Below are positions 27,753 to 55,349 of a stretch of 64,000 bases of DNA, in pieces. The position numbers were made by a program, and so were the translations under genes. This stretch comes from Halobaculum halobium (GTDB taxonomy: Archaea > Halobacteriota > Halobacteria > Halobacteriales > Haloferacaceae): the NCBI RefSeq assembly GCF_030127145.1, contig NZ_CP126158.1:1984001-2048000 (forward strand). The letters are read 5' to 3'. The notes beneath the pieces are model-generated. The model searched no databases and had not been told where the DNA came from. It saw nothing but the letters and a program-made list of their open reading frames with translations. Every line of letters begins with the position of its first letter. The stretch's first letter is position 1.

Positions 27753-27802
27753 TCTTCCTGTCGGAGTCGTCTGATTATTAGTTCTGATTAGTGTGGAGTT
27801 AG

Positions 27803-27863
27803 AGGTAAGTACTCCTTCGGAATATCGGGAGATAGCTCCGGAGAGGGAGCGGACAACAACACA
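27803..27863 (+). repeat. 61-bp leader repeat upstream of archaellin 5 (copy B)
   Basis: This matches 20267-20327 at the same distance from the ATG with only scattered changes. Together with the following 5' half of the gene it forms a long direct repeat with archaellin 1. Upstream of it lie the last codons and 3' flank of the UppP gene. Confidence 0.7.
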
Positions 27864-34814: not shown

Positions 34815-37800
34815 TCACATTCGCTTCTTCCGGAGGTATTCGACCGGGAAGACCGCGGTGAGGCCCGGTGTGTCGATCCGGAACTGACTCGGCGGGGTAT
34901 TCGGGCTGTAGGTCTTCTCGACGCGGGGGTCACCATCGAGCGGGTCGTTCAACGCACCGAGGACGTCGTGGCCAGCGCTGCGGGTCATCACCACCCAGAT
35001 GGCCTCCTCGACATCGCAGTCGGCCATCTTATCGAAGTCCTCAGGAACAGCTCGTCGAAGGTCGTGATTCACGCGTTCGGCCTCGACCGCGATGACGATC
35101 TCGCCGTCCTCATCGACGGCGGCGATATCGAGGCGACGGTTCTCATCGAGATCGTAATAGGGGATGACCTCGGCGACGGACGACTCGGGGTCGTCGACGT
35201 ACTCTGTGATGAGGTACTGCCGTGCGAGTTCGATCGCGAACACGTGTTGACTCGACTCTTCGAGGTCGCCTGCGCCGTGGCCGTAATCAACACCCTGGCG
35301 ATAGCTCTCGCCGATGGCGGTGCGGCCGTCAGGCGTCACCGTGTACAGCCGGTGGGGATGATCCGTATCGTGGCGAAGCAGACCCGCATCAATGAGGTCA
35401 TGAATCGCACTCGAGTCGATGCCGACGTACTCCTGCAGGCGGATCATCGAATCCGAGAGCAGGTCATATTCGAGTGGATCATACCGCAACTGCTGGGCGT
35501 TGTACACCGCTTGGAGGAACATGAGGTGGTGGTCATCCCACTCGGAGACGGCTCGCTCATCGGGTGTGAGCTTCACATTCAGGTCGCAGATGGGGATATC
35601 GTCTTTCTCGACAGCGTCCATGCTGTGACAACAGCGGATCGCCCGTTGCATCCCGCGGATATCCGGGTCGTATCGATTCGAACACGACTGGCAGCGGAGG
35701 GCATGCAGTGCGGCGTCGTACTCGACCGCCTCCGGCAACCGGTTCGTATACGGGAGTGCCGAGTCGATCCGCGGGAGGTCCTCGGGATCGACGGCATCAT
35801 CATCTTCTTCGGCACCATCCCGATCAACTCCCCCGGGCGTGGTGAGGTGGATGCCCGCCCGGTCACCCGTCTCGACAGCACACGCCTGCAGCAGGTGTTG
35901 AAACCGCGTCTCTTCTGCAGGAGTGAGCGGGCGTGTGCTTTCTGGATGTCCCGCAGGCAGTGGTGCGGATTCGACGAGAAACGGTCGCGGTGCGGGCTTG
36001 CCGAATCCTGCTGGGAGTGAGACGAACCACTGTCCACGCTTGAGTGCACGCAGCCGTGCGCGGACGGCCCTCGAGTTCAGATCTTCGGTTGCGAGCCGCT
36101 CGGCGAGATCGCGGTCGAGTGGGACGTTCCCCGTGATGATCGTCGAGACGTTGTTGAGCACTTCCTCGTACGTCCCGGCTTCATGCTGGGCGAATTGCCC
36201 CGGGAACTGCGTCGCGAGGGTGACTGCACAATCGAAGCTACGCGCCTGTGACAACAGCGTCGAGAGGAGATCAGAGACGGCGACGCTCGCGGCCTCTTCG
36301 AGATAGAGGTTCACCAGCGGGTCATCTCTCTCGGTTTCTGTGTGCGGGTCCAATTTCCGCCGTCGAAGAGCCGTCCAGAGATTCGACAGCAAGACGAGCG
36401 TGAGGACACGCTGTGCTTCCGAGCGCAGCCCACCCGTATCGAAGATGAGGAGGACGTCCTCATCGAGGTAGTCGGCGAGGTCGAAGTGTGGGTCATCCCC
36501 CTCGGGGACGTGATTGAAGATCGCGGCGAGACGGCGGTCGACGGGAATCTTCTCGATACGGTTTGCGACCCCGCCCATGAGTTCATCGAAGGTTTGGGCG
36601 CGATTCGAGACGACGCCTTCGAGCATCCGTTCAAGGTCGCCATCAGAAACGGGGGGTGCTGCACGGCGCTCGTGCATCTGACGGGCCATCGAGTGGAACT
36701 GGCGATGTGAGTAGGCGTCATACCCGGAGACGGGGTCGAACATCGCCTTCACGAGATAGCGGATGATGTCTGGAGCACGGACCGCGCGCTCGAAGCGCTC
36801 ACGGCCCATGACCTGCATCAGGATCTCAAGGTAGTGGTCGACCCGATCCTCGACTGCGGTCGTTCGGTCAACCCCCGCAGCAAGCTCTGCGCGGATATCG
36901 AAAAACGAGAGCGCGGGCAGCACCTCCGCACAATCGAAGTAGACGACATCGTCGAGGTTTCCATGGCGAGCGTAGTGTGCCCTGAGGAGTTCAGTCGGCA
37001 TGCCATCCCCCTTAGGGTCGATAACGATGCTCGCGCCAGCTGTCGCCTCGTGGTTCGCGAGGATGGCGTTGATGAGTGCGATCGTCTTCCCGTGGCCGGT
37101 GCGCCCACTCCAGAGCGTGTGCATCGGCTGGTGGCTTGGTGGGAGTGCGATCGGCGTCGGGTCGCTCGTGCCATCCTCGCCGAGGGGGTGGCCAAGCAGC
37201 AGGCCGGGCGTGTGATATCGCTCAAGCTGCGCTACAGGTGGTGCAGGCAGGGTGTGTCGCTCTCCCGGTGTCGGTGCGAGCGTCCGCCCGCCTTCGGCAG
37301 TGAGTGCGTTGCCATCGACGAACGCGAAGCTCGCGAGTTCGGCTTCGTCGACGACGATCCCACGGGTCGCATTCGAAGTTCCAGGGAGGCGTCGTCGCCC
37401 ACCGTGAGCGGGCGGAGGCGAAACGCGCGCGGCAAGGTCGTCAATAACCCCGCGTGCGTCGCGTCCTGTTCGAACCCGTCCATCGACTCCGTTGAACGGC
37501 GTCGACAGCGTCTCGAACGCGTCGGCGAGTTCGCGAGCGAGTCGGGTCCCCCCAGCCTCGTCGGTTGTGACGCCAGCCCGGGCGGTGAGTGTGAAGGTGT
37601 TGTGGGCGTGTCGGGTTTCGAGGCCGGCGATTCGATCGCGTTCTGTCGGAAGGAGGTCCTCGACGTCTGTCTGTGGGTCCGGTGCCCCGAGCAACGTATT
37701 CGCGACTTGCTGCCTGAACGTATCCTGATTCGCCTGCAGGCGTGCGATTCGATCCGAGACCGCTCCCGTGAGATCTGGGTGAGGTGTGATCAGCGCCTGG

Positions 37801-38790: not shown

Positions 38791-38827
38791 AAGACGAATC
38801 TCAGTAGAGTAGTCGGTTCGTGTTGAA

Positions 38828-38849
38828 AATCCGCGGTGGAGCGCGGATT
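38828..38849. promoter_or_regulatory. Inverted repeat upstream of the OB-fold gene
   Basis: AATCCGCG, a 6-nt spacer (GTGGAG) and CGCGGATT form a perfect 8-bp dyad ending 36 nt before ATG 38886. This is where an archaeal promoter element or operator would lie, so a dimeric regulator is plausible. Confidence 0.4.
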
Positions 38850-38885
38850 GTGGGCGTCGTGAAACGCCTTCGGTCAAGTAGACCA

Positions 38886-39746
38886 ATGAGTAGTCAATAC
38901 GCACTCGGTAGTGAAGCTGTCGGACAGGACACTGAACAATCGGCGGACGCGGTGGTTGATGAAGACGGATTCGAGGTGATCGATGAGGCGGCAGAGCGGG
39001 AAGCGGCACTGCGGCCCACAGTCGAGATGGAGACGCAGGCGGTGATCGATACGGACAACCCGGCGGCTCGGAAGGCGGGATTGACGCTGGAAGAAGCAGA
39101 ATGCATTGCGGCGTGGGAGTTCGAGATCGCGCGGACGGTCGAGCGGGCAGACCGTGGTCAGGGACGGCTGCGTGAGGCGTGTACACAAGACGTTGTGGAG
39201 ACGGCGTCGCGGACGGCGCGTGCGGCGTTCGATAAGCGGGCGGCGAGTGTCGACCCGCGGTTCGACCCGGTCGACCCGAGAGAGCGGTTGGCGCGCGAGG
39301 AGTTGGCGGCTGTGAATCAGGAGGCGGCACGGTTGGAGGCGGGGCTGGCGAACGGGACGTCCCGGGCGGCGCTTGCACGGCAGTTGGCCGAGCGAGTCGA
39401 GCAAGGGCGGTCACTCATGAGCGCGTCACTGGCAGTTGTGGAAGCCGAGCAAACGCGGCCCGAGCGGGTGGTCGATATCGCGCGGGTCGGAGATGTTCAA
39501 TCGGGGGAAGTGAGTCTCGAAGGCGAGGTGACGCAGCTATTCGAGCACACGTCACAGGCGATCGCGCAGGTGGGACTCATCGAGGATGATACGGGGACGA
39601 TCAAGTTCACTGCCTGGAAGCGCAGCGGTGTCGACCCAGTCAGGGTGGGCGAGCGGGTGCGGCTGTGTCACGTCGCGAAGAACTGGTACAATGGGCGTGT
39701 GAGCGTGTCACTGACGGGGTGGAGCGAGGTGGAGTGGGTCGGCTAA
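38886..39746 (+). CDS. OB-fold (RPA-like) single-stranded-DNA-binding protein
   Basis: The 286-residue protein has a helical, acidic N-terminal 170 residues and a C-terminal OB fold. The fold reads VQSGEVSLEGEVTQLFEHTS, then QVGLIEDDTGTIKFTAWKRS, VRVGERVRLCHV and WYNGRVSVSLTGW. This is the pattern of archaeal replication protein A. The start at ATG 38886 (MSSQYALGSEAVG) is preferred over an in-frame upstream codon at 38820. As a cargo gene of the conjugative region it probably coats single-stranded plasmid DNA. No zinc finger follows, unlike many chromosomal RPAs. Confidence 0.7.
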   Translation: MSSQYALGSEAVGQDTEQSADAVVDEDGFEVIDEAAEREAALRPTVEMETQAVIDTDNPAARKAGLTLEEAECIAAWEFEIARTVERADRGQGRLREACTQDVVETASRTARAAFDKRAASVDPRFDPVDPRERLAREELAAVNQEAARLEAGLANGTSRAALARQLAERVEQGRSLMSASLAVVEAEQTRPERVVDIARVGDVQSGEVSLEGEVTQLFEHTSQAIAQVGLIEDDTGTIKFTAWKRSGVDPVRVGERVRLCHVAKNWYNGRVSVSLTGWSEVEWVG

Positions 39747-40784: not shown

Positions 40785-41729
40785 ATGACGACAGAGATCG
40801 ACTACTTCGACGAGCAGTACGATGACGAATACGGCGGCGAGCTCCCGACAGCGACCTGCCCAGAATGCGAAGGTGGGCTTCGAACCGACGGCGGCGAGAC
40901 AGCGTGCACGGCGTGTGGACTACTCATCGACGAGTATCGCTACGATCACGGTGCGACGCCGCGGTCGTTCGCTGAGTGTGACCAGAGCCGAGAACAGGTG
41001 GGTGCACCACTCACGGAGACGCGCCATGACCGCGGCCTCTCGACGACGATCGGCCGCGGAAGGGACGCGAATGGTGCGTTCCTCACCGGGAAGAAGCGTG
41101 CGCAACTCCAGCGCCTTCGGCGTGAGGATAGCCGTGGGCTGTTCGCGTCGAAAGCCGAGCGGAATCTCGCGGCCGCTCTGAGTGAGATCGCCCGGCTCAC
41201 GAGTGCACTCGAACTCGACCGGGCAACGCGCGAACTTGCCTCGCGGATCTACCGGGAGGCCCAGACACACGACTTGATTGTCGGGCGGTCGATCGAGGGG
41301 ATGGCAGCCGCGAGTGTGTATGCTGGCTGTCGGTGTGGCTCGAGCACCCGGACCCTTGCGTCGATCGCGGCGGTCTCACACTGTTCGACGGAGGAGATTC
41401 GCGCGCGATACAGCGTGCTCAACACGGAACTGGGCCTTGAAGCAGAGCCACCAACACCCATGGAGACACTCGCCCGCCTCGCGAGCGAGTTCGACGTGCC
41501 CGCGGCGGTCCGCGCGAGAGCGACCGACGTGGCCACAGCGGTTTTCGAGGTGAAGCGTGGGACCGGATGCAATCCGGCCGGGATCGCAGCCGCGTGTGTG
41601 TATCTCGCGGCTCGCGAACACGATGTTCCGCTTCTCCAGCGAGCGGTCGCGGAGGCAGCGGGCGTGACAGATGTGACGCTTCGAGCGCGGATGAATGACG
41701 CTGCGGCGATTGGCGCGATCGAGTCGTAA
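40785..41729 (+). CDS. tfb: Transcription initiation factor IIB (TFB), element-borne
   Basis: The 314-residue TFB recruits RNA polymerase to TBP-bound promoters. The N-terminal zinc ribbon has Cys 25, 28, 41 and 44 (CPEC and CTAC). The B-finger/linker region (GAPLTETRHDRGLSTTIGRG) is present. Two cyclin-like repeats follow, marked by LDRATRELASRIYREA with GMAAASVYAGCR, and by AVRARATDVATAVFEV with GIAAACVYLAARE. Haloarchaea encode several TFBs, and one carried by a conjugative region could redirect transcription to its own promoters. It has the 29-bp element at its own promoter, so it may be self-regulated. Confidence 0.9.
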   Translation: MTTEIDYFDEQYDDEYGGELPTATCPECEGGLRTDGGETACTACGLLIDEYRYDHGATPRSFAECDQSREQVGAPLTETRHDRGLSTTIGRGRDANGAFLTGKKRAQLQRLRREDSRGLFASKAERNLAAALSEIARLTSALELDRATRELASRIYREAQTHDLIVGRSIEGMAAASVYAGCRCGSSTRTLASIAAVSHCSTEEIRARYSVLNTELGLEAEPPTPMETLARLASEFDVPAAVRARATDVATAVFEVKRGTGCNPAGIAAACVYLAAREHDVPLLQRAVAEAAGVTDVTLRARMNDAAAIGAIES

Positions 41730-42294: not shown

Positions 42295-42322
42295 TAGGAA
42301 TGTATTCCTAATAGGAATCCTA
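42295..42322 (+). promoter_or_regulatory. Double dyad operator and TATA box of the MNT/HEPN operon
   Basis: A TTTATA box at 42291-42296 overlaps a dyad TAGGAAT, GT, ATTCCTA (42295-42310). A second dyad, TAGGA, A, TCCTA (42312-42322), runs into the ATG at 42322. A third ATAGGAATG half-site lies just inside the gene. The TATA position fits a leaderless transcript. The MNT protein carries a winged helix, so autorepression is likely. Confidence 0.6.
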
Positions 42323-42990
42323 TGCCCAATAGGAATGGATCGGCTACAATTGCGCTGGAGTATCCATTTCCCGATGACCGAGTATTTCGATACCAGGCGA
42401 TGCAGGATGTCCTCTCGGTTCTTATTGAGGAGCCCTACGAAGAGTTCACCGTCAGCGAACTAGGGGAGCTAGTCGGGGCGAACCAAGCAACAGTCTCGAA
42501 AGCCGTTCAGCTCCTCAAAGAACTAGGACCGATTCAGACCCGCCGCGACGGTCGGAAACAGTACGTGAGTATCGATCGTGACCGACTCACGAATTCCGAT
42601 CCAGTGCTCTTGATTCCACAAGCGGAGTTTCACAAGCCGGTTCGAACGTTCGTCGACCGCGTCCAAACGAAGATCTCCGGACTTGTCGGAATCGTTCTGT
42701 TCGGCAGCGTTGCGCGTGGAGAGGCTGACAGAGCGAGTGATATCGATCTCATCGTCTTCGTTGAAGAAAACAAGACCCAGGCTCGTCAAACCGTCCAATC
42801 AATCGTAAGGGATCTTGAAGAGACAAAGTTCGACGGAAACCGCTATGCGTTTGAGGTATTGGTTGAGTCGACCGACAGCGCGAAACGAATCGGGGATCGA
42901 CTCCATCAGCAGTTCGACGGTGGAATCACGCTTGTCAGTTCCGACGAACTGACCACTATCCGACGGAGGGCCCACACAGATGGAGAATAG
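42322..42990 (+). CDS. Winged-helix MNT nucleotidyltransferase (antitoxin of an MNT/HEPN pair)
   Basis: The 222-residue protein has an N-terminal winged helix (FTVSELGELVGANQATVSKA, residues 42-61, and a wing TRRDGRKQYVSI). A minimal nucleotidyltransferase domain follows, whose motif is G128-S129 and D140-x-D142 (GSVARGEADRASDID). In characterised MNT/HEPN systems the MNT enzyme modifies and silences the HEPN RNase. The stop overlaps the HEPN start by 11 nt. The fused DNA-binding domain and the dyads in the promoter suggest autoregulation. Confidence 0.8.
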   Translation: MPNRNGSATIALEYPFPDDRVFRYQAMQDVLSVLIEEPYEEFTVSELGELVGANQATVSKAVQLLKELGPIQTRRDGRKQYVSIDRDRLTNSDPVLLIPQAEFHKPVRTFVDRVQTKISGLVGIVLFGSVARGEADRASDIDLIVFVEENKTQARQTVQSIVRDLEETKFDGNRYAFEVLVESTDSAKRIGDRLHQQFDGGITLVSSDELTTIRRRAHTDGE

Positions 42991-43465
42991 CGACGTTTTG
43001 GATGCACTGGCAGAGGCGGAGCACAGTTTCGAACAGTCACCAGATACAGTGGAGGACGGGCTTGACGTCGACGAGCCGGAGTTAGTACAGCTCCGGCGGG
43101 CGTGCCGGCTCCTCGCAGCTAGCTCACTGCTACTCGAAGATGGCTACTACACGGTCGTCATCGAGTCCTCATTCGTGGCAATCGAGCGGACGATACAGTT
43201 CCGGCTTATTCACGATGGCGCAATGGATCCATCTCAGGTCATCAGTAGTCATCGCCGGCTCTACCAGCGCGGTGCCGAGATCGGGCTCTATGACGAGGCG
43301 TTCGGTGACGAATTAGCGGAGTTGTGGAATCAGAACCGAACAAAAACGTACTACCGCCTCCGCATCGCGACGAAAGAGCAGGCTGAAGCGATGCAGGAAC
43401 TCGCAAATGCAGTTCATATTCATCTCGTTGACGAGAGTCGAGCGAGCTATCAGTGTCTCTGTTGA
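42980..43465 (+). CDS. HEPN-domain protein (toxin partner of MNT)
   Basis: The 161-residue, all-helical protein is of the HEPN type. The place of the catalytic R-x4-6-H motif reads NRTKTYYR with R120 followed by Tyr 124 and 125, so the histidine is replaced by tyrosine. The pair may therefore have reduced or altered RNase activity. Helices LRRACRLLAASSLLLEDGYY and SSFVAIERTIQFRL match the fold. It overlaps the MNT gene by 11 nt and is probably translated with it. It probably serves element maintenance or defence. Confidence 0.7.
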   Translation: MENSDVLDALAEAEHSFEQSPDTVEDGLDVDEPELVQLRRACRLLAASSLLLEDGYYTVVIESSFVAIERTIQFRLIHDGAMDPSQVISSHRRLYQRGAEIGLYDEAFGDELAELWNQNRTKTYYRLRIATKEQAEAMQELANAVHIHLVDESRASYQCLC

Positions 43466-43597: not shown

Positions 43598-43626
43598 GCT
43601 GTTTGTTGCCCCCTGACGGGTGCGGG
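43598..43626 (+). promoter_or_regulatory. 29-bp shared element, copy 3 (before DUF932-like gene)
   Basis: GCTGTTTGTTGC followed by the core CCCCTGACGGGTGCGGG. It ends 30 nt before ATG 43657, the same placement as copies 1 and 2. Confidence 0.65.
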
Positions 43627-43656
43627 CGCACAGAACATCGCGCTCGTGAGAACTCG

Positions 43657-44814
43657 ATGTCGAACACACCACACACAACCGTGTTTGCGGGTATCGATGC
43701 ACGAACGCCAGCGAGCCTCCCCGAGTGGTACCGTCGTCACCACCACGATCCGGAGACGATCACCTTCTCTGAGGCGATCAGGTGCCTTCCACGGGCGAGC
43801 ACCACCGAGGTTGCCTACAGAAATCCCTACCTGGATGACTGGGTTGCGACCGATCGGTTCACAGCGATCGTCGAGCCCGGGCGATTGGCCGAGCAGCAGT
43901 CCGATGAAGCCGAAGAGCCGCTATTCGCGATCCCGACTGATGCGTACTCTGTGATCAACCCCGTTGACGTGTACGGACCGCTCGAAAAGGTGCTCCATGA
44001 GACAGAGTACGACGACAGAGTGCTCGGGGAGGTGACGTTCGGCGAGATACGCCAATCGCGCGGCGGTGGCGAAGTCCACATGGACATCCTCTTCGACGGC
44101 TACTCGGTCGAACTTCCCGGTCGCCGTGAGCCCATTACACTCGGTGTGACTACTGGATACGATTACTTCGGCGGGCACGCGGTCTACGTCGAGGGCTTCG
44201 CACGCGATACCGTGTGTGCGAACTCGATTCGACAGCTCACCGATCGTGAGACAGTGCGACACGTCGGCGCGATTGGCGACTTCCGCGAGTGGTGGGAGCG
44301 CATCCTCACACAGTTGGACCTCGTTGCTAACGACCTCATCGCGTTCATCGCCGAGGCGAGCGACAGTTCCGTCGACTTCACCGAGGTTCCGTTCGACCTC
44401 GCCGAGTTCTACGCCCTGCTTGGATTCCCCGAGTACCTCGTCGACCACGCGGTTCGCGATGTCCGTGCGATGGCGAGCAACCCACTCGATGTGGATATGT
44501 GGACACTTCACTCGGGAGCGACGTATGCACTCACGCACTTCTTCACGGGCGGTGATGGAGTGGCTCTCGACCGCTACGTCACGACCGCGAACGATATCTT
44601 GTTTAACCCGAGTGCGACGCTGGACGTGGTCGAACGAAGCTTCGAACGACGTGCGGCTGAAGCGAGGGAGACGAACGGGCAGACTGATCTCGAAAGCCAG
44701 GTTGCCCTCGCACAACTCGAACGCGTCGGCGAAGACATCCATTCGAACGCGCGCCGATTCGAGGAGCGAGAAGCAGAACTTCGCAGCCGGTTTGCGTCAG
44801 TCGCTGACGACTGA
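43657..44814 (+). CDS. DUF932-like plasmid protein
   Basis: The 385-residue soluble protein begins MSNTPHTTVFAGIDARTPAS. The middle region resembles DUF932, a family carried by plasmids and phages: GYSVELPGRREPITLGVTTG, YDYFGGHAVYVEGFARDTVC, ANSIRQL and VRHVGAIGDFREWW. A long helical C-terminal part ends in a likely coiled coil (HSNARRFEEREAELRSRFAS). ATG 43657 is set by the 29-bp element 30 nt upstream. Function is unknown; DUF932 proteins are often linked to plasmid maintenance or anti-defence. Confidence 0.6.
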   Translation: MSNTPHTTVFAGIDARTPASLPEWYRRHHHDPETITFSEAIRCLPRASTTEVAYRNPYLDDWVATDRFTAIVEPGRLAEQQSDEAEEPLFAIPTDAYSVINPVDVYGPLEKVLHETEYDDRVLGEVTFGEIRQSRGGGEVHMDILFDGYSVELPGRREPITLGVTTGYDYFGGHAVYVEGFARDTVCANSIRQLTDRETVRHVGAIGDFREWWERILTQLDLVANDLIAFIAEASDSSVDFTEVPFDLAEFYALLGFPEYLVDHAVRDVRAMASNPLDVDMWTLHSGATYALTHFFTGGDGVALDRYVTTANDILFNPSATLDVVERSFERRAAEARETNGQTDLESQVALAQLERVGEDIHSNARRFEEREAELRSRFASVADD

Positions 44815-45180: not shown

Positions 45181-45576
45181 ATGCTAGGAATATCCTACTC
45201 GATCGTTCGCTGGATCGCCGCTCGTCGTATTCGCCTTCACGGGCCACTGACCGCGCTCGTGTTGTTCGCGATCGTCGCTATCGCCCCGGTGCAGGCACAG
45301 ACCACGGGGACGGCCTTCTGTGAAACCGATATGGTCGCGACGATCAAGAACGTCTTCACGCTCATCCAGTTCGGCGGGCCGCTCATCGGCGGCGTGATCG
45401 CGTTGGGAGCGACGGTCGCACTCCCCGCCGTTTCGCGTGCAGACCGCAAGAAGGAACTCACCGAGATGCGCAATCAGGCAGTCGTCTGGGGGGTGCTTGT
45501 GGCGCCGCTCGGGACGGCCATCATCGCGTTCCTGCTCAACAACGTGGTCGTCGGAGGCACCAGTTGCGGCTTCTAA
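45181..45576 (+). CDS. VirB2/TrbC-like pilin-type membrane protein
   Basis: The 131-residue protein has an N-terminal basic stretch and a signal-like helix (GPLTALVLFAIVAIAPVQAQ) with a likely cleavage after AQA. Two hydrophobic helices (FTLIQFGGPLIGGVIALGA and WGVLVAPLGTAIIAFLL) follow, joined by a short basic loop (SRADRKKELTEM). A signal plus two helices and a small loop is the layout of VirB2/TrbC conjugative pilins. Two Cys flank the mature chain. It heads the operon and overlaps the next gene by 13 nt. Confidence 0.65.
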   Translation: MLGISYSIVRWIAARRIRLHGPLTALVLFAIVAIAPVQAQTTGTAFCETDMVATIKNVFTLIQFGGPLIGGVIALGATVALPAVSRADRKKELTEMRNQAVVWGVLVAPLGTAIIAFLLNNVVVGGTSCGF

Positions 45577-47297
45577 CCACGGCGACGCGGTCTGTCCTCC
45601 TCGCGTTGCTGGTCGTGGCTACAGTCGTCGCGACGACATCGCATTCGCTCGCCCACCCGGTGAACGAGACTGACCACGGCGTCAACGAGTCGACGCACGC
45701 GACGCTGTGGTCAGGAGATACAGACACCGCGAACCTCACAGCGCTGGCCAACTCGAGGGGTGACGGCGAATCTCCCTCCGAACTCCGACTGCTTGCCGCG
45801 GGGACGGACATTCCCTTGGATGCGCCGCCTGCCGCAGTCGAGCAGTGGAACGAGGGCGAGCTCACCGAATTTCCGGAGACCGGTCCGAGTGAATCAGTGT
45901 ATCCTGCGCGTGCAGAGCCAGTTGATGGGCGATTCATCGCGGATGCACACGCGACGCTGGTCACAGTGCAGCCGTCGACGCGTGCACGGCTTTCAGTCGG
46001 TGACGCTCCGTTATATGTCGCTGATCGCGGCGACGTGCTCGGCGTTGTGGACTATCGCATCGCAGTTCCCCGTGATGATCGCAGCGGCCTGTACCGCGTG
46101 TCATGGCGCTTGGCCGATCACGAGATCACTGAAACGCGACTATTGGTCAACGAGAGTATCGTCGCCCGCGGTGACGGGACTCGGACACCCACACTCGCGT
46201 ACGATCTCGATGATGCAGCCGACGAGCCGCGAACGCTCACACTCGAAGCTGAAATCGCCATTTCACTCATCCGGACGACGCGCGTCGGCGACCGAACCTG
46301 CCGGAGTGTGAACAACAGCACGAACTGCACGACGACGTGGACGACGAGTGTTCGGACCATTGAGGAGACGCGTACGGTCTCCGATTCCATCGATGTCGTT
46401 GGGTACGAACTCGACGTTTCTGGAGCGCGAACGCGCTATCCGAACGGCGATATCGGCATCGTCCTCTACAAGAACCAGCCTTGGCTCGGCTATTCGCTCG
46501 GCGAGGGCTCGGTTAGCGGCGTGTGGCGCTTCTACTCTGCACGCGACTTGTCGTGGGATACGCTTACGCGGAGTGACGGAACGGGAGAGACGGTCGAGCA
46601 CTCGCCAGTGCATCCGCTACAGGTACACGCGTATCCGATCAAGACGGGGCCGACCGCGGCGCCGCGCTCACACATCGAGCTTGTGGAGACCTACGGCGAG
46701 CAAGTCGTTCCACCCACGCTGCCCGAGGACATCAACCTCGACGTGCTCACTGACCCATACACGGCCAGCTACGGGATCGCAACGCGCTCCGCTGGGGACG
46801 AGACTGCTCCGTGGCAGGTCACCGCACGTGGACTGGTTGGCCGCGAGCACGTCGTCCTTGACCCTGCGGATCTCCCATCGGTACCGATGAACCGTAGCAA
46901 TCTCACACTCGCTATCGAGAACACGACCGGCGAGACGATCACGGTTCGACTCGACCTCCGTGATGCTGGCTCTGGAGCAGCGATCGATACCAGCGAACGC
47001 AACGAATCAATCCACATTGCCGACCGCGAAGTCGACACCGGCCCCGATGGAACGGCGACTGTGACGCTTGATCGCGATGTCGGTGGGGTCTCTGCCCGAT
47101 ATGAGCCACGCCCGTGGTGGTTCGGCGGGACCGCATACGTCGGGGACTCTGATGCGGTGTATCCCCGAGGTGTGGTTCTCCAGACGGTACGGACGCTCTT
47201 CGAGTTCGCCATACCGCTGGCGTTGCTCTTGTTCGGGGTGTTCGTCATCGACCGGTTGACAGGCTGGGCCGTGTGGCCACCATGGAGGGGGCTGTAG
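45564..47297 (+). CDS. Ectodomain membrane protein of the secretion operon
   Basis: The 577-residue protein has an N-terminal signal (RSVLLALLVVATVVATTSHS), an external, beta-rich region of about 500 residues with many N-x-S/T sequons (NETD, NEST, NLTA, NNST) and a C-terminal helix FEFAIPLALLLFGVFVIDRL near residue 555. It starts at TTG 45564 inside the 3' end of the pilin-like gene; no better start is visible. Placed between VirB2- and VirB6-like genes, it may be the surface or mating-contact part of the machine. I do not recognise a named domain. Confidence 0.6.
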   Translation: MRLLTTATRSVLLALLVVATVVATTSHSLAHPVNETDHGVNESTHATLWSGDTDTANLTALANSRGDGESPSELRLLAAGTDIPLDAPPAAVEQWNEGELTEFPETGPSESVYPARAEPVDGRFIADAHATLVTVQPSTRARLSVGDAPLYVADRGDVLGVVDYRIAVPRDDRSGLYRVSWRLADHEITETRLLVNESIVARGDGTRTPTLAYDLDDAADEPRTLTLEAEIAISLIRTTRVGDRTCRSVNNSTNCTTTWTTSVRTIEETRTVSDSIDVVGYELDVSGARTRYPNGDIGIVLYKNQPWLGYSLGEGSVSGVWRFYSARDLSWDTLTRSDGTGETVEHSPVHPLQVHAYPIKTGPTAAPRSHIELVETYGEQVVPPTLPEDINLDVLTDPYTASYGIATRSAGDETAPWQVTARGLVGREHVVLDPADLPSVPMNRSNLTLAIENTTGETITVRLDLRDAGSGAAIDTSERNESIHIADREVDTGPDGTATVTLDRDVGGVSARYEPRPWWFGGTAYVGDSDAVYPRGVVLQTVRTLFEFAIPLALLLFGVFVIDRLTGWAVWPPWRGL

Positions 47298-48164
47298 ATG
47301 CGGCGTGATCAACGGTGGTCACGTCGGCGTGTGCTCGCGGGCGTTGGTGCGCTTGGTGCGACAGCGGTCGCGGGCTGTGTAGGTGGCGACGGACCGTCGA
47401 GTGAGACGCCATCGCGCGATTCCGTCTTTGAGTCGATCGAGTTCGAGGGCCAACATCTCGTGATTCGACTTCGGGAAGACCACGATGTCTCAGCAGTCAA
47501 CGTGATCGGGCCCGATGGGAGTCTGTTCGCACAGCGAGGTGTGGCAGTCGGGGAGACCCAAGTGGCAATTGAGATGCTTGACCCGCGCTCTGGAATGTCC
47601 GATCACTACACGACCGGTACCCACGAGGTCATCGCAATTTCAGGTGAATCGCAGGAATCTGTTGAGCTTCAGCTGGCTCCTGATATCCGAATTACGGATG
47701 TCTCACAGTACACTGATGGGAAATCCAACATAGACTTGGCCAGACTTGTTGTCACGGTTGAAAATACTGGTACTGCTCCGGCTTGGCTCACAGACTTCGC
47801 GGTTCGTGGTGCTCCGAATTGGGCTACCAATGAAGAGCTAATTGTCGGATCAGGTATCCCCTATTTTGGTATCCAAGAAACTCCTGCTGAGGCTCTCATT
47901 GAAGCCGGTGAAAGTCAACAATACGTTGCCGATGAGAGTCCGTTCCTCTTCGATGAGGACGGCATAATGTGCGATAGCGGCGATGAGGTGATTCTACTTG
48001 TAGGAATTAGTGATGGATCACACATCCGCCTGGATCTTGATGTCTCATATGGAGGCGATGTCTATACAGTGAGATTTGGGGAAACCGTTTGTTCAGCCCT
48101 CTCGATATCAATAACTCGTCAACGACTGGCACATGCAAATCCGAGCATTAGAGGTGCGACATGA
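47298..48164 (+). CDS. Tat-exported lipoprotein of the secretion operon
   Basis: The 288-residue protein begins MRRDQRWSRRRVLAGVGALG and has the lipobox VAGC, so it is a twin-arginine lipoprotein. The mature part contains a beta-sandwich-like region (IDLARLVVTVENTGTAPAWL, typical of CARDB-like folds). It starts immediately after the previous stop and overlaps the VirB6-like gene by 4 nt. From about 47,640 the DNA becomes clearly AT-richer than before, a sign of mosaic origin. It may occupy the place that VirB7-type lipoproteins have in bacteria. Confidence 0.65.
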   Translation: MRRDQRWSRRRVLAGVGALGATAVAGCVGGDGPSSETPSRDSVFESIEFEGQHLVIRLREDHDVSAVNVIGPDGSLFAQRGVAVGETQVAIEMLDPRSGMSDHYTTGTHEVIAISGESQESVELQLAPDIRITDVSQYTDGKSNIDLARLVVTVENTGTAPAWLTDFAVRGAPNWATNEELIVGSGIPYFGIQETPAEALIEAGESQQYVADESPFLFDEDGIMCDSGDEVILLVGISDGSHIRLDLDVSYGGDVYTVRFGETVCSALSISITRQRLAHANPSIRGAT

Positions 48165-49459
48165 ACTCGCTCATTGAGGTGATCATTGAAGCACTGAAGC
48201 AGTTTATCGAGGACTTGCTGAATGAAGTACCATCTGTAATCGAATCGAACGTTGAGGCAGTCATCAAAACTATCGTTGGAACACCGCGTCCAGATTCCGT
48301 GTTTACTCGCCCAACAAACAACGCTTGGCCCGCAATGTACGACCAGTACTGGGAATTCATCTTCCCGCTTGCACTCCTCCTTTGGGGACTCTCAATCGGG
48401 ATTGTGATCTTTCTCGAATCGACGAGCTACCTGTTCAGCGGATACCACCGCTCAAAACTGAAGAAGCGGGCTTTTTCGGGGCTTCTCGGAATCCTCTTCT
48501 GGTGGTGGATCGCCGCACTCTCGTTGCGGTTCATGGAGGCTCTCACTGGCTATCTCGTTCCGGATATCTCAGATATTACGCTCTTTGAGACCCTCTCATT
48601 CGGCACAATCGGTGTTCTCGGGGTTGCGCTCTCTCTTTCTGTTAATCTCACATTGTTCGTCCTCGTCGGACTCGTCTACTTCGTTCGCGAGATCGTCCTC
48701 TATTTGTTCGTTCTGATGATGCCGATCCTCATCGCCCTCTGGGTTCCCGGGGTCGGTCCGTTCACACTGGTTTCTGGATTCGTCCGTCGCCTTGCCGGCT
48801 TCTACGTGCCGTTCTTATTCATGACAGTCCCGGTGGCGATCCTCTTTCGTCTCGGAGAGATCCTCGGCGATAGCGTCACGCTCTCCCCGGATGGAATCGG
48901 CGCATGGATCACGGCACTCGTGATCCCCGTCGTCGCAGTCGCGTCGCCGTTCGTATTGTTCTGGCAGGCAGGGGCCCTACTGTTCACAGCCGATCGGACG
49001 GCCCAACACGTGTCTGCAGAACGCGCTCGTCGACGAGCCACGCAAGCGACGACTGCCAGCCAGTCAGGGGCGCACCACGGACGGAATTTCCTCCGTGGCG
49101 TCCGCGGCGACGGCGCGATCGCTCGTGATGGAACCCGCGAGTTCGGGTCGGGTGACTCACGCGCGAATCGGGCGGGGATGCAACTGCGCTCGCGGACGCG
49201 CAAGACGAAGACGAAACTCGCCGACCGCGTCGCACGACCGACACGTGATGATGCATCTAACCGCGACGGCGGGCTTCGCGAACGCGTCGGCCGTGGACGT
49301 GGAGACACGCGGCGTGATCCGCTTGCACCGGATCGCGCTTCAGGAGGGGAAAATCCTGAACGATCGTTCAGAGAAGAGACGGGGAGCGCACCGTCTCGCT
49401 CTCGGCCAAAACAAGATGCACCCGGTCGAGATGATCGTGATCGGAGGGACCGATCATGA
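48161..49459 (+). CDS. VirB6/TrbL-like polytopic channel protein
   Basis: The 432-residue protein begins with an amphipathic helix and has about seven transmembrane segments (residues 60-85, 105-128, 145-165, 168-190, 193-210, 220-240 and 250-275). A long, basic, hydrophilic tail of about 150 residues follows, rich in Arg, Asp and Ser. This is the shape of VirB6/TrbL-type inner-membrane channel components. It overlaps both neighbours by 4 nt (ATGA). The 5' half is AT-rich and the tail strongly GC-rich. The assignment rests on topology and operon position. Confidence 0.65.
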   Translation: MNSLIEVIIEALKQFIEDLLNEVPSVIESNVEAVIKTIVGTPRPDSVFTRPTNNAWPAMYDQYWEFIFPLALLLWGLSIGIVIFLESTSYLFSGYHRSKLKKRAFSGLLGILFWWWIAALSLRFMEALTGYLVPDISDITLFETLSFGTIGVLGVALSLSVNLTLFVLVGLVYFVREIVLYLFVLMMPILIALWVPGVGPFTLVSGFVRRLAGFYVPFLFMTVPVAILFRLGEILGDSVTLSPDGIGAWITALVIPVVAVASPFVLFWQAGALLFTADRTAQHVSAERARRRATQATTASQSGAHHGRNFLRGVRGDGAIARDGTREFGSGDSRANRAGMQLRSRTRKTKTKLADRVARPTRDDASNRDGGLRERVGRGRGDTRRDPLAPDRASGGENPERSFREETGSAPSRSRPKQDAPGRDDRDRRDRS

Positions 49460-50466
49460 GCACGAGCGACCCAGCGAAGCGTATTCCGAAATTCATCGGG
49501 ACGGAGACGAAGCTGTTTGGCTCATACACGCTTACTGACCTCGCGGTTGCGCTCTCACCAGGCGTCGCAGTCATTCTCCTGACGCAGGTGCTCCTCCCAT
49601 CGGAGTTCACAGTCGGGGGGTATCACCCACAGACGCTCACACTTCCGCTCGCGGGAGTGGGAATCGCAGTCGGTGTGCTCTTTGTCTACCTCACTCCGGC
49701 GTACACCACAAGTCTGGACTGGTTCGTTACCTTCGTCGGCTTCCACCGGAGTGAGCACGAACTCACCCACGAGGAGGCGAAGCAGTACACACACGTCGAG
49801 CGTGTGCACCCGATCGAGGGTGTGATCGAGCGGACCGACGGCGCGTTCGTCGGGCTGATCCACGTCAAGCCGCCGTCGATGGCACTTGCGACGAGTGCAG
49901 AGTGGGGAGCGAAAGCCCATGCGTTCGAGGAGTTCTGCAACACGGTCGTTGAGTATCCGATTCAGATCTACTCGACGACACAGCCGTTTCCCGTCGACGA
50001 GTTCCTCGCCGAATATGAAGCACGACTCAGCGATCCGGATGTGAAGGCAAACCCGCGGTTGGCGGCGCTCATCGAGCACTACCTCGAGTGGTATGCGAGT
50101 GAACTCGATAACCGACAGATGACGATCCGCGATCACTATATCGTGATCCCCGTAACGCCAGCGGAGGTTCGCTTCGAACGCGAGAGCCTCATCGAGAAAC
50201 TCGCGGCCGTGCCCGTGCTCGGCGTATTCCTCAATGTCTGGCTGGCGCCGTCTGTTGACGACCAACGATCGGCGATGCTCGATGAACTCGACGAGCGCTT
50301 GCGACACGTCGAGGCGGGGATTCGCGAGATCGACGGCTGCGGGGCGAGTCGACTCGCGGTTGAGGATGCAACGACGCTTCTTGCCGAGTTCTGGGCTGGC
50401 GAGACACGAGAATATGCAAATCTGGAGCAGGTGCTTCGAACGCGCCCGCTCGTGAGCAATGATTAG
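49456..50466 (+). CDS. PrgI/VirB3-like membrane protein fused to a VirB4 N-terminal domain
   Basis: The 336-residue protein begins like PrgI (IPKFIGTETKLFGSYTLTDL), followed by two transmembrane helices at about residues 28-48 and 55-77. A soluble part of about 240 residues then resembles the N-terminal domain of VirB4/TraC ATPases (DGAFVGLIHVKPPSMALAT, QMTIRDHYIVIPV and later helices). The motor domain is absent here and encoded by the next gene, which overlaps by 8 nt. It therefore looks like a VirB3-VirB4N part of a split VirB4. Confidence 0.7.
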   Translation: MSTSDPAKRIPKFIGTETKLFGSYTLTDLAVALSPGVAVILLTQVLLPSEFTVGGYHPQTLTLPLAGVGIAVGVLFVYLTPAYTTSLDWFVTFVGFHRSEHELTHEEAKQYTHVERVHPIEGVIERTDGAFVGLIHVKPPSMALATSAEWGAKAHAFEEFCNTVVEYPIQIYSTTQPFPVDEFLAEYEARLSDPDVKANPRLAALIEHYLEWYASELDNRQMTIRDHYIVIPVTPAEVRFERESLIEKLAAVPVLGVFLNVWLAPSVDDQRSAMLDELDERLRHVEAGIREIDGCGASRLAVEDATTLLAEFWAGETREYANLEQVLRTRPLVSND

Positions 50467-52555
50467 AGATAGACTGCCATTTACTGGAAACGGTGGGGGC
50501 CCGAGTGATGAACACGCTGTGGAGACGGCGAACGAAGATACCGAGGACTCGAAAGACGAGCATGAAGGCGAACCCTCGGATCGACTCTCAATCAATTACG
50601 AGACAAATGACTCCCCACTGGGGAGTATCGAGTCTGTCCACCAGTCAATCCTCACGCCCTCGGATATCGAGCGGACGCCAAATGCAACCCGAACGGGCGA
50701 ACAGTGGGCGCAAACACTGTGGGTAAGTGAGTTTCCAGACGCACCGAGTGACGGGCTCTTCGAAGGACTCTATTCAACACCAGAAACGCGCACAACGGAC
50801 ATCTCGTTACACATCGAGCCACGTGATACGCATCGGACGCTTGACTCACTTGAGAACAAACTCGAGTCGCTGGAGGCGAATCACGAATATCTCGCAGAGA
50901 AGCGCCGCGCCGGTGCCCGTGGCGTGCAGAAAGATCTTGCCGACTACCAGGAACTGTATGATGTCCTCAGGAACACGTCGATGCGGGCGTTCGACGCCTC
51001 GATGTATCTCACCGTCCGGGGTGACTCGGCTGATGAGATCAACGTCGACGGCGTGAGTAACGCTGCGCGACGCTCCCCATCGAATCTCACGCCGGTGACG
51101 CCGCGGTGGGCACAACTCGACTCACTCATCTCGGCGAGTCCAATCGGCGTGGACACGCTCAACCAGTCGATGGATACCCGGACGCCCATGCTCGGTGGCG
51201 CACTGGGTGCGATGTTCCCGTTCGTCGCCGGCGCGTTCGCCGAGCCCGGGATCGAGTACGGGACGTATGCCCTGAACGAAAGCCCGCTTATTCTCGATCG
51301 GTTCAATCGCGAGACAGGCTACTGTGCGATGGTCATCGGAAAGCTCGGTGCGGGCAAGTCCTTCTCGACAAAGCTCCAGCTGCTCCGTCGGGCGATGTAC
51401 GATGAGGACACACTCATCGTCATGCTCGATCCACTGGAGGGCTTCGCGGGCGTGAACGACGCGCTCGGCGGCGAGCGTGTGACTATCGGCGGGACGCGCG
51501 GGCTGAATCCGCTTGAGCTGAAGGCGACGCCCGACGCGATCCTTGCGGACGTCCCTGACCTCGATCCGTGGTCTGAGCAGATCTCGTGGGTGCTCACCTT
51601 CTTCGAGACGTTCTTCGCACACATCGCGGCGAATCCGCTCGGTGACCGAACACAGACGCTTCGGCGGGCGATCCAAGAGGCGTACGAGCGCAAGGGAATC
51701 ACACGTGATCCGTCGACGCACTCGCGTGCATCGCCGACCGTCCGTGATGTGGTCGGTGTGCTTGAGGACCTGCTCGCAGACCCGGGTGACTTCGGGTATG
51801 TGACTGCAGGTGAGCAAGAGAGCGTCGCTGCGGACGCACAATCGCTGTTGAAGGACCTTCGTCCCTCGTTCCGCGACGGTGGCGACCTCGCGAACCTCGC
51901 CGAGCCGACCGAGCTCGAACTCGACTCGGACGTGATCTACCTCGACTTACACCAAGAGGAGGGTACCCGCGGACGCTCGGAGACGAGCCTCATGATGCAG
52001 GTACTATTCAACGCGGTGTATGAACGCGCGAAGGAGACCGACAAGCGCGTCGTGTTCGTCATCGACGAAGCGCACTACCTGATGTCGGATGCGACCTCAC
52101 TCGGGTTTCTGGAGACGGCCGTACGTCACAGCAGGCACTACGACCTGTCGCTGCAGTTTATCACGCAAACTGGTGGTGAATTCGCCTTGACACCGGAGGC
52201 GCGGACGATCGCGAGCCTCTGCTCGATGACACTCATCCACCGTGTGCAAGAGGAGGCTGAGAAGCTCGCCGAGTGGTTCGGGTTGAGCGAACGCGAGGTG
52301 AACTGGGTGCAGACGGCAAAAGCTGGGAATGATGAAGACGGGTATTCAGAGGCGTTACTCGGTATCGACGAGGAAGGGTGGTTCCCGCTTCGCGTGCGGG
52401 CCAGTGGGTTCGAAGCGCAGGTGATCGCGAGTGGAATGCCAGGACCTGCACCTGCTGGAGTCGAGCGTGAGAACAAGCCTGTGTCTGGATCGACGCCAGA
52501 GAGCGGTCTATCGGAGTCCCTGACGGGTGATGACTCGATCCCTCGGAAGTTGTGA
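50459..52555 (+). CDS. VirB4/TraC-like conjugation ATPase
   Basis: The 698-residue secretion ATPase has an acidic N-terminus and then a coiled-coil region near residues 130-170 (NKLESLEANHEYLAEKRRAG). The motor has Walker A IGKLGAGKSFSTK near residues 292-304 and Walker B VVFVIDEAHYLM near 530, followed by RHSRHYDLSLQFITQTGG, the usual VirB4 core. It powers pilus building or DNA transfer at the inner face of the membrane. It overlaps the PrgI-VirB4N gene, which should supply its N-domain. Confidence 0.85.
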   Translation: MIRDRLPFTGNGGGPSDEHAVETANEDTEDSKDEHEGEPSDRLSINYETNDSPLGSIESVHQSILTPSDIERTPNATRTGEQWAQTLWVSEFPDAPSDGLFEGLYSTPETRTTDISLHIEPRDTHRTLDSLENKLESLEANHEYLAEKRRAGARGVQKDLADYQELYDVLRNTSMRAFDASMYLTVRGDSADEINVDGVSNAARRSPSNLTPVTPRWAQLDSLISASPIGVDTLNQSMDTRTPMLGGALGAMFPFVAGAFAEPGIEYGTYALNESPLILDRFNRETGYCAMVIGKLGAGKSFSTKLQLLRRAMYDEDTLIVMLDPLEGFAGVNDALGGERVTIGGTRGLNPLELKATPDAILADVPDLDPWSEQISWVLTFFETFFAHIAANPLGDRTQTLRRAIQEAYERKGITRDPSTHSRASPTVRDVVGVLEDLLADPGDFGYVTAGEQESVAADAQSLLKDLRPSFRDGGDLANLAEPTELELDSDVIYLDLHQEEGTRGRSETSLMMQVLFNAVYERAKETDKRVVFVIDEAHYLMSDATSLGFLETAVRHSRHYDLSLQFITQTGGEFALTPEARTIASLCSMTLIHRVQEEAEKLAEWFGLSEREVNWVQTAKAGNDEDGYSEALLGIDEEGWFPLRVRASGFEAQVIASGMPGPAPAGVERENKPVSGSTPESGLSESLTGDDSIPRKL

Positions 52556-53482: not shown

Positions 53483-53533
53483 ACGGTTCACTCCACGGGA
53501 GGCGATCGACTGTCCGAATGTCTTGAGACCACC

Positions 53534-53560
53534 GAGTGAGAGAGTACATTTCGTGTGTTC
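53534..53560 (-). repeat. Origin-type repeat (inverted copy 1)
   Basis: This 27-bp repeat is the exact reverse complement of the consensus GAACACACGAAATG then TACTCTCTCACTC found upstream of the orc1/cdc6 gene. It lies downstream of that gene, about 210 bp from its stop. Confidence 0.7.
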
Positions 53561-53723
53561 TCGCGTCCACTGGTGGAACCCCTCTTGTCGGGTTCTCGGC
53601 AGAGGTCGTGCGGAAGCTGATGGTCTGGTCTTTGTTATCGACGAAGAGACCTGTCCTTCGTCATAGTTCTGTTTTGGAGTATCTACTGGCGTTTTCTGGA
53701 TACGTGGCCGTCCGCGGGAGTAC

Positions 53724-53750
53724 GAGTGAGAGAGTACATTTCGTGTGTTC
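53724..53750 (-). repeat. Origin-type repeat (inverted copy 2)
   Basis: This 27-bp copy is identical to 53534-53560 and in the same inverted orientation, 190 bp further on and 18 bp from the 3' end of the orc1/cdc6 gene. Confidence 0.7.
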
Positions 53751-53768
53751 TCAGAGCGAACTACACCG

Positions 53769-54977
53769 CTACGTGTGGCGCGCGATTTCCGCCCGAGTCT
53801 CAAGGATGATCTCCTGATCGAGGTTGAGTTCATACTCGTAGTACTGCCCCCCACTGCGCCCGTGGTTTCGCTCGTGGCGAATGAGAAACCCAAGCATCTG
53901 GAGGTCAGAGAGATGATCTTGAACGCTTTTGAGTGTCGTCAGTGGCGTCGCACCGTGTGAGTCAGCAACAGTTTCATACACTGTTTGGACCGCCTTCGAA
54001 CGCGCCGGTAAGTCGTCTGTCTCTGCCAGCCGTGCAATCGCCTCGAGGATGTACTGGGCGTGTTCAGTCTGATCGCGGATCTTGTTCTCCAATCGACCGC
54101 GCCTGACGAGTCCTCGCGCCCGCTCAATGTGTTCGTCGGTCACGTGAGCTTCGCCAGTTCGTTCTGCAACCTCAGAGCCAACCCGCAGGAAATCGATCGC
54201 TTGTCGTGCATTTCCCATGTCCTGCGCTGCGAGGGCGGCGGCCTTCGCGATCGCAGACTGCTTACAGACGCCATCACGAAACGCCTTGTCGGCACGGTAC
54301 TGGAGAATTGTCTGAAGCTCAGCGGCGTCGTACGGACTGAAGGATATCTCGGTTTCCATCAGTGTATCTTTGACTTTTGGGGAGAGCGACTGTCGAAACG
54401 TGTAGTCGTTGCTGATTCCAACGATTCCAACGAACGCGTTTGAGATATGGTCGTTTGCCCGTGCCCGTGGGAGCTCATACAGTAGCGTGTTCACGTCCTC
54501 CAGGTGGTCAATCTCATCAATAACGAACAGATGCGTCCCGCCGATCCGGTCGAGTTGCGCATATAGTTCGTCGAATGCGTCCCCAGTTCCGAGTCCGCGT
54601 TTCGGAAACGGACTCGCGTTCTCTGGTAAGAGTTCATTCACCAGTTCGCGGACTACCATGAACAGCGTTCGGCCGTTACAATTGATTTTGTGGATGTGGA
54701 CGTGGTCTGCTTCAGGACGGGTATCCACTTCAGCCAGCAGCTCGTTCATCATATACGTCGTCACGGCAGTCTTCCCGAGTCCAGCTTTACCGTACAAGAA
54801 AATGTTCTCGGGTTCGCGACCGAACAGGATATCCTGTAGTGCGTGACTGTAGGCTTCGATCTCCTCATCCCGCTCTAGAATCGTATCCGGTTGATAGCTT
54901 TCGGTGAGAACGGATTTGTTTTCGAAGATCGTGTTTCCCACATCACTGAACGGGCCCGACATCGGTTGTCTCTGCAA
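53769..54977 (-). CDS. orc1: Orc1/Cdc6-family replication initiator
   Basis: The 402-residue AAA+ initiator recognises origin repeats and loads the replicative helicase. Walker A GKAGLGKT is at residues 63-70 and Walker B FVIDEIDHLE at about 151-160. Sensor-type segments (GIVGISNDYTF) follow, and a C-terminal winged helix covers about residues 310-400 (TPLTTLKSVQDHLSDLQMLG). The start is ATG 54977; a second ATG at 54962 gives MSGPFSDVGNTIF. Six copies of a 27-bp repeat flank the gene (four upstream, two downstream, opposite orientation), so this should be the element's own origin. Confidence 0.92.
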   Translation of the reverse strand: MQRQPMSGPFSDVGNTIFENKSVLTESYQPDTILERDEEIEAYSHALQDILFGREPENIFLYGKAGLGKTAVTTYMMNELLAEVDTRPEADHVHIHKINCNGRTLFMVVRELVNELLPENASPFPKRGLGTGDAFDELYAQLDRIGGTHLFVIDEIDHLEDVNTLLYELPRARANDHISNAFVGIVGISNDYTFRQSLSPKVKDTLMETEISFSPYDAAELQTILQYRADKAFRDGVCKQSAIAKAAALAAQDMGNARQAIDFLRVGSEVAERTGEAHVTDEHIERARGLVRRGRLENKIRDQTEHAQYILEAIARLAETDDLPARSKAVQTVYETVADSHGATPLTTLKSVQDHLSDLQMLGFLIRHERNHGRSGGQYYEYELNLDQEIILETRAEIARHT

Positions 54978-55093: not shown

Positions 55094-55280
55094 ATACACA
55101 CGAAATGTACTCTCTCACTCATCGAAGGCCCCTGCACCTCCGCGAATGGAACACACGAAATGTACTCTTTCACTCATAGAAGGCCCCCGCACCTCCGCGA
55201 ATGGAACACACGAAATGTACTCTCTCTCATCCACAGAAGAATCCGAGACCTGCTAGAGTAGAACACACGAAATGTACTCT
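55094..55280 (+). repeat. Origin repeat array: four direct copies, period 55-57 bp
   Basis: Copies of ACACACGAAATGTACTCT with its flanks begin at 55094, 55149, 55204 and 55261, giving spacings of 55, 55 and 57 bp. Between the first copies the spacer itself repeats (GAAGGCCCC, then GCACCTCCGCGAATG), so the first units are tandem duplicates of 55 bp. The first copy has one change at its left end, the second has T for C near the right end, and the last is cut short. The array lies about 120 bp upstream of the orc1 start, the usual place of an archaeal ORB cluster. Confidence 0.8.
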
Positions 55281-55300
55281 CACACGGTTCTGGTCAACTA

Positions 55301-55349
55301 CCCCACCCTACTTCGCTCACCCTGACGGGTTTGCTCGTTGAGGGTGGGG
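55301..55349 (-). other. Right-end stem-loop of the TnpB element (candidate omega-RNA 3' end)
   Basis: The arms CCCCACCCT (55301-55309) and AGGGTGGGG (55341-55349) pair across a 31-nt loop that contains a smaller CCCTGACGGG fold. The stem lies at the 3' end of the tnpB fragment. This resembles the right ends of haloarchaeal IS1341/IS605-type elements as I recall them, where the guide RNA ends. Confidence 0.5.

Follow-up and report, generated by a model that had tools for sequence, protein, structure and literature searches.

Do six contiguous genes on the chromosome of Halobaculum halobium encode a type IV secretion system (T4SS), and would such a system transfer DNA? The genes lie at 45181-52555 in a stretch of 64,000 nt, hereafter the window (contig NZ_CP126158.1, positions 1,984,001 to 2,048,000; G000:C1:1984001-2048000 in our numbering), of a genome of 3.46 Mb assembled in three contigs. 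An earlier note, made from the letters of the window, had read them as a haloarchaeal conjugation operon. The core of that idea, DNA transfer by haloarchaeal VirB4 and VirD4 proteins, is already known: in Haloferax volcanii, VirB4/D4 genes of a 53-kb region had led to the proposal of a DNA secretion system (Hartman et al. 2010, PMC2841640), and Moi et al. 2022 (PMC9259645) described VirB4- and VirD4-bearing integrated haloarchaeal mobile elements that also carry Fsx1 and HerA. From the analysis below we conclude that the module is very likely the DNA-transfer T4SS of an integrated haloarchaeal conjugative element, of a reduced, single-membrane type related to the MPF_FATA systems.

Genes and conservation of the probable transfer module

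As listed in Table 1, the six open reading frames (ORFs) follow one another on the forward strand with successive junctions of -13, 0, -4, -4 and -8 bp, which agrees with the overlapping or abutting arrangement described earlier, and all of them display coding-type codon use (simple composition score). The operon had however been ended one gene early, since the start of the primase gene overlaps the end of virB4 (52527 versus 52555) and in relatives the primase belongs to the same block.

The VirB4 protein matches the VirB4 profile NF045971 (E 4e-41), TraC (6e-21) and a solved VirB4 structure (4ag5, E 1e-16), and its Walker motifs are intact, as had been noted (the Walker A motif starts at residue 294). 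A profile made from haloarchaeal VirB4s was run against bacterial plasmid VirB4s, HerA and VirD4. It found five bacterial plasmid VirB4s (Lacticaseibacillus, Pontibacillus, Ruminococcus, Lactococcus and Chlorohelix) with E-values from 6e-35 to 1e-70 and, at E <= 10, neither the two DUF87/HerA proteins of the genome nor its four VirD4s. In the corresponding tree, where the HerA and VirD4 branches are long, the haloarchaeal VirB4s cluster together (94/88), as do the bacterial ones (99/97), with VirD4 and HerA apart. Both profile and tree thus place the protein with the conjugative VirB4s and not with HerA or VirD4. A defence-system ATPase was also considered and discarded, the matches being far weaker (mad8, 8e-10; HerA, 5e-5).

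The predicted polytopic protein is firmly assigned to the VirB6/TrbL channels, its match to PF19590 (TrbL_3) reaching 85.3 bits for a cut-off of 23. The 336-aa protein, announced as a PrgI/VirB3-VirB4N protein, was upheld for one of its halves. Because its second half matches TrsD, it can be taken by homology as a VirB4 N-terminal half: the TrsD profile (NF041427) gives E 9e-4, under the curated cut-off, and hhalign gives 94% over 137 columns with TrsD of Lactococcus plasmid pAF22. The counterpart of the 336-aa protein is fused to VirB4 in Natrinema sp. SYSU A 869 (1105 aa), and Halorutilus and two Ods metagenome-assembled genomes have a longer VirB4 and no separate VirB3/VirB4-N gene. The position of the first half and its two membrane helices (hydropathy) fit VirB3; its PrgI character is weak by sequence, so that the whole resembles a TrsC-TrsD pair with the first member less well recognized.

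The pilin was likewise borne out in part. Its topology by hydropathy fits VirB2, with a signal peptide (ending near AQ40), a helix, a basic loop and a second helix. The TrbC/VirB2 profile matches 19 of the 36 family members weakly (best E 0.0018) and the T4SS_pilin profile matches four of the 36 (best 2e-4); one relative carries the RefSeq annotation 'pilin'. The window protein itself has no TrbC profile match. Two cysteines are invariant in 36/36 relatives, C47 just past the predicted cleavage site and C129 two residues before the C-terminus. By analogy with the cyclic VirB2/TrbC pilins, a disulfide between them may join the two ends into what would be in effect a closed pilin. Searches of PDB profiles with the VirB3/VirB4-N, ectodomain and pilin families returned nothing useful, a match to TdpA spanning 49 residues.

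The conservation of gene order was counted over 70 named loci of other species, all those whose upstream DNA was long enough. The full order pilin, ectodomain protein, lipoprotein, VirB6, VirB3/VirB4-N, VirB4 is found in 49 of them and the lipoprotein alone is missing in 13 more (in one, VirB6 is called as two ORFs), a recurrence that excludes a chance arrangement; in a few loci VirB3/VirB4-N is fused to VirB4. A primase gene lies downstream of virB4 in 33/70 loci and a VirD4 gene directly downstream in 34/70, VirD4 being often part of the same block. Of 391 Halobacteria genomes, 261 contain a VirB4-type match, and numerous haloarchaeal plasmids carry one too; none was found in viral contigs. 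The two ATPases go together: VirD4 is present in 139/166 VirB4-positive genomes versus 16/76 others (Fisher p 4e-21, with no control for relatedness). The module itself is present on plasmids, e.g. pNG600, and has relatives in Haloferax, Haloarcula and Halorubrum.

A few side observations concern the relatives. The 167-kb contig C3 of the same genome carries two copies of a second, diverged version of the system (about 40% identical), at about 6038-16822 and 113890-124673, i.e. about 108 kb apart; their VirB4s score identically, and the pair could reflect either a true duplication or an artefact of assembly. On pNG600 (L046 10081-11319) and pHTS96 (L048 4843-6080), the exonuclease VII genes xseA-xseB stand just upstream of the transfer operon.

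Table 1. Features of the probable transfer module and of its surroundings (window positions)
Feature	Position	Strand	Evidence
VirB2/TrbC-like pilin, 131 aa	45181..45576	+	signal peptide, two membrane helices, two invariant cysteines
Surface protein, 577 aa	45564..47297	+	AlphaFold2 pLDDT 88; partial Ig/FnIII-type matches
Tat lipoprotein, 288 aa	47298..48164	+	RR motif, lipobox
VirB6/TrbL-like polytopic channel protein, 432 aa	48161..49459	+	PF19590 E 5.2e-24; about six membrane segments
Predicted VirB3 (PrgI/TrsC-type) + VirB4 N-terminal half (TrsD-type), 336 aa	49456..50466	+	NF041427; hhalign to TrsD
VirB4 ATPase, 698 aa	50459..52555	+	NF045971; Walker A GKLGAGKS, Walker B YLDL, DEAH
Primase-polymerase (NrS-1 type), 307 aa	52527..53450	+	PF22763 E 5e-30; phrog_1829 DNA primase E 9e-92
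VirD4-like coupling ATPase, 1228 aa	34815..38501	-	Walker A GRTGHGKT (466), Walker B LLIFDTGG (684)
C-terminal part of coupling ATPase (aa 926-1228)	34815..35726	-	zinc-type motif, winged helix, restriction-endonuclease-like core
phrog_13083 gene, precedes operon in several relatives too	43603..44814	+	conserved
Orc1/Cdc6 replication initiator of element	53769..54977	-	PF09079 E 2e-19
OB-fold (RPA/SSB-like) DNA-binding protein of element	38820..39746	+	PF21473 E 0.0014; PRK07217 1e-16
TFB transcription factor encoded by element	40785..41729	+	PF00382 E 2e-30
Pair of exact 30-bp origin-type repeats next to cdc6	53533..53752		repeat search
About 55-bp tandem repeats, other side of cdc6, inverted relative to the 53533-53752 pair	55096..55285		repeat search

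Outer proteins

Profile scans recognized no VirB1, VirB7 to VirB10 or VirB11 among the scanned genes. The outer parts thus differ from those of bacterial systems, as had been anticipated, a surface protein and a lipoprotein being found instead of VirB1 and VirB7-10. The surface protein is made of a signal peptide, an ectodomain of about 500 aa with 11 N-glycosylation sequons, and one C-terminal membrane helix. Its AlphaFold2 model is confident; it confirms the large ectodomain as a set of beta-sandwiches and displays a long beta-hairpin (aa 222-280) with two strands of 28-29 residues. Foldseek gave partial Ig/FnIII-type matches only, with TM-scores of at most 0.17 when normalized to the query. 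The Fsx1 islands had raised the idea of a fusexin (Fsx1/HAP2); it was rejected because the archaeal fusexin 7P4L ranks 37th, at a TM-score of 0.10-0.12. A distant relative of the surface protein (E 1e-13) was found in a genome outside Halobacteria, of the same phylum (G412, L216 9092-10924), with no detectable VirB4 in the 20 kb covered there.

The motifs expected of a Tat lipoprotein are present: an RR pair and a lipobox whose cysteine, C27, is kept in 29/30 relatives, another cysteine, C225, being kept in 30/30. The profile of this family is not specific, since it also picks up generic Tat lipoproteins encoded in the flanking chromosome, and for this reason lipoproteins were called from their position.

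The coupling ATPase and its tail

The VirD4-like ATPase gene was found on the other strand, 6.7 kb upstream of the operon, close to the distance given in the earlier note. The protein has intact Walker motifs and no predicted membrane helix. Its profile matches are weak (TraD, E 7e-7), TrwB and TraG being matched in relatives, in some cases above cut-off; with it, the element has a predicted VirD4-type coupling protein, as is required of a conjugative element. In a close relative (G109), a VirB4 of the same type (G109:C1:1606445-1608511) and a VirD4 (G109:C1:1660228-1663767) are separated by about 52 kb of chromosome, which indicates that the coupling gene need not stay close to the module once the element is integrated.

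After the motor come, in this order, a zinc-type motif (C937xxC940...C957C958), a winged helix and a restriction-endonuclease-like segment. In an alignment of 23 divergent sequences (A8, positions shifted by 929), down to 27% identity, only 26 columns are invariant; E1082, D1125, E1140xE1142 and K1158 are among them, which suggests a catalytic site. The segment was modelled in the order alpha-beta-beta-beta-alpha-beta (block pLDDT about 41-80), which is that of restriction endonucleases, and the tails of the plasmid-clade coupling ATPases show the same D-x14-ExE-K order as the window type. A nuclease is thus a plausible, if tentative, reading of motifs combined with a low-confidence model. The further proposal would be that the coupling ATPase is a DNA-processing enzyme, in which a VirD4-like motor, a zinc/winged-helix unit for DNA recognition and a restriction-endonuclease-like nuclease replace the relaxase, so that one protein both cuts and pumps DNA, a route that would differ from the relaxase-led strand transfer of bacteria. 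It is attractive in that the genome lacks three relaxase families (PF03432, PF03389 and PF08751, the only ones searched genome-wide) and that no archaeal relaxase is known (PMC9905601, PMC12857230); we hold it to be possible but rather doubtful.

Several results count against a nuclease. The model of the tail is poor overall (pLDDT 49), no nuclease-domain match was obtained with Pfam and PDB profiles, plasmid-clade and window-type tails could not be aligned by hhalign, and Foldseek puts chiefly winged-helix proteins at the top of its ranking, where 3ijm, with a restriction-endonuclease fold, comes only 50th at E 0.29. The preference of Foldseek for winged-helix regulators, the silence of the profiles and a motif II that reads ExE with a displaced lysine instead of (D/E)xK would all suit a tail serving as a DNA-recognition platform, made of the zinc motif, the winged helix and a restriction-endonuclease-like fold that has degenerated, with an unrecognized relaxase or a host enzyme doing the cutting. 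The invariance of the E, D, ExE and K residues argues against such a platform, to which we nevertheless give a nearly even chance.

Function of the module and its place among known systems

The left flank (window 26676) runs on, in the congener G297, into sequence that in the window genome is found at G000:2088439 and beyond; this joining of the flanks means that the window genome has about 78 kb extra. The stretch is composite, with BacA/archaellin/AglB-type genes (26.9-34.1 kb), then the transfer block, then sugar-modification-type genes to about 2079343. The first part is common to congener G294 and partly to congener G063. At the same place G294 has a virB4 fragment and G063 a primase fragment, from which it follows that the transfer block was there and decayed. 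Clean element ends, which the G297 junction might have provided, were not retained, the island being composite and without att repeats. Origin-type repeats (ACACACGAAATGTACTCTC...) stand on both sides of cdc6 in inverted orientation (Table 1), those at 55096-55285 being probable origin boxes; an IS605-type OrfB/TnpB-like gene (55317-56570, with a Cas12f1-like TNB domain) adjoins them. At 42322-43465, an MNT-type nucleotidyltransferase with a winged helix is found beside a HEPN-like protein, likely a toxin-antitoxin pair; a homologous pair is carried by a Haladaptatus plasmid (L045 35272-36424). To the left of the element is an archaellin cluster (20235-28472), with Arch_flagellin in the four copies scanned and a repeat family linking a fifth; AI-2E transporter and BacA genes lie between the copies, one paralogue being inside the island. 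Farther left, in the chromosomal flank (11428-19164), is a gene for a surface protein of 2578 aa, in which PQQ repeats and about nine PKD domains are found.

The DNA-transfer reading rests on the profile matches of VirB6 and VirB4, the separation of VirB4 from HerA and VirD4, the TrsD match of VirB3/VirB4-N and its fusion to VirB4 in Natrinema, the order kept across genera, the co-occurrence of VirB4 and VirD4, the modules on plasmids, the flank junction in G297, and the element-type replication genes and repeats. On the other side, the VirB2 and PrgI assignments are under the Pfam cut-offs, the PrgI profile matching one of 37 family members (E 0.12), and hhalign gave no signal between the pilin family and two bacterial plasmid pilins. 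The missing relaxase families also weigh against it, as do the absence of a tyrosine integrase (PF00589) within 1984001-2086000 and of clean flanking direct repeats in the stretches compared. The composite island, decayed in congeners, may be a resident element that is no longer mobile. With no integrase nearby, none of the three relaxase families and no ends found, the suggestion that the element may be self-transmissible was not sustained.

The chromosomal location of the module, the lack of an integrase and the decayed pieces in G294 and G063 would also be expected of a domesticated DNA-exchange system, such as a Ced/Ted-like importer or an aid to chromosomal mating, serving the cell rather than the element; the crenarchaeal Ced and Ted are domesticated T4SSs with VirB2, VirB6 and VirB4 (Beltran et al. 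2023, PMC9905601). This is in our opinion improbable: the VirD4-like ATPase that co-occurs with VirB4 is outside the core parts of Ced/Ted, close relatives of the module are found on plasmids, and its patchy presence in the genus (a VirB4 match in 5/11 genomes) fits mobility. Some T4SSs export effector proteins or mediate contact-dependent antagonism, and the adhesin-like ectodomain together with the nearby MNT/HEPN pair could be taken in that sense. However, no effector or immunity gene is recognizable in the block, the primase, the OB-fold protein and the origin genes point to DNA, and the same block recurs on plasmids, all of which makes export of proteins instead of DNA very improbable.

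For a DNA-transfer T4SS, the assembly, the direction and the form of transfer that we infer are as follows. VirB6, VirB3 and the split VirB4 would constitute a membrane pore and its motor, and the pilin, once cleaved by signal peptidase, would be polymerized through the S-layer. The membrane-anchored Ig-like surface protein and the lipoprotein would take the place of VirB7, VirB8, VirB9 and VirB10, as outer parts or adhesins stabilizing or targeting the contact. The soluble VirD4-like ATPase would hand DNA to the pore, and the primase would either make the second strand or serve replication of the element from its Orc1/Cdc6 origin. More tentatively, the nuclease-like tail of the coupling ATPase might recognize and cut the element DNA in place of a relaxase; the confidence expressed at the outset applies to the DNA-transfer T4SS and does not extend to this step.

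One of the closest known systems is the MPF_FATA T4SS that Gram-positive plasmids encode (TraC-TrsD-VirB4 of Lactococcus pAF22, CD1110-type VirB4 of Lacticaseibacillus), with which the module shares the arrangement of VirB3 (a candidate in the module), VirB4-N and VirB4 (VirB4 is split in pAF22), a VirD4-like ATPase and single-membrane hosts. The haloarchaeal module departs from it by the absence of a relaxase (three families), of a recognized peptidoglycan hydrolase (VirB1) and of VirB8, by its Ig-like surface protein and Tat lipoprotein, and by a coupling ATPase that has a long C-terminal tail and no membrane helices. The Fsx1 elements and the H. volcanii region are likewise large chromosomal islands of deviating composition, in which VirB4, VirD4/TraG and XerC/D are named (PMC2841640, PMC9259645). 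In the window there are in addition a candidate pilin, VirB6, VirB3/VirB4-N, the ectodomain protein, the lipoprotein and the ATPase tail, which are undescribed in the parts covered of these papers, and the surface protein differs from that of the Fsx1 elements in not being a fusexin. Ced/Ted DNA import shares with the module a VirB6-like channel, a VirB4-like ATPase and a VirB2-like pilin, of which the module has a candidate; it is chromosomal, whereas the module adds the VirD4-like ATPase, VirB3/VirB4-N, the ectodomain protein, the lipoprotein and relatives on plasmids. The conjugative plasmids of the Sulfolobus pNOB8 type and Thermococcus pT33-3 (reviewed in PMC12857230) also have VirB4 and VirD4 homologues and no recognized relaxase; there, only VirB4 and VirD4 are recognizable, whereas the module also has a counterpart of VirB6 and candidate counterparts of VirB2 and VirB3.

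The kind of system is therefore known from the VirB4/VirD4 islands and from Ced/Ted. What is new, the covered parts of the open-licence literature holding no earlier description, is the full module, the pilin with its two invariant cysteines and the soluble, tailed coupling ATPase. In the earlier archaeal elements only VirB4 and VirD4 had been recognized (PMC9905601, PMC12857230); the module provides candidates for the pilin, the channel, VirB3, the outer parts and the DNA-cutting step in mesophilic, culturable archaea, which brings the preparation of DNA for transfer in archaea within reach of direct experiment. If the nuclease proposal is true, a nuclease-like motor domain might replace the nicking enzyme that is apparently missing from archaeal conjugation. 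More generally, the module may bear on mating and gene exchange in haloarchaea.

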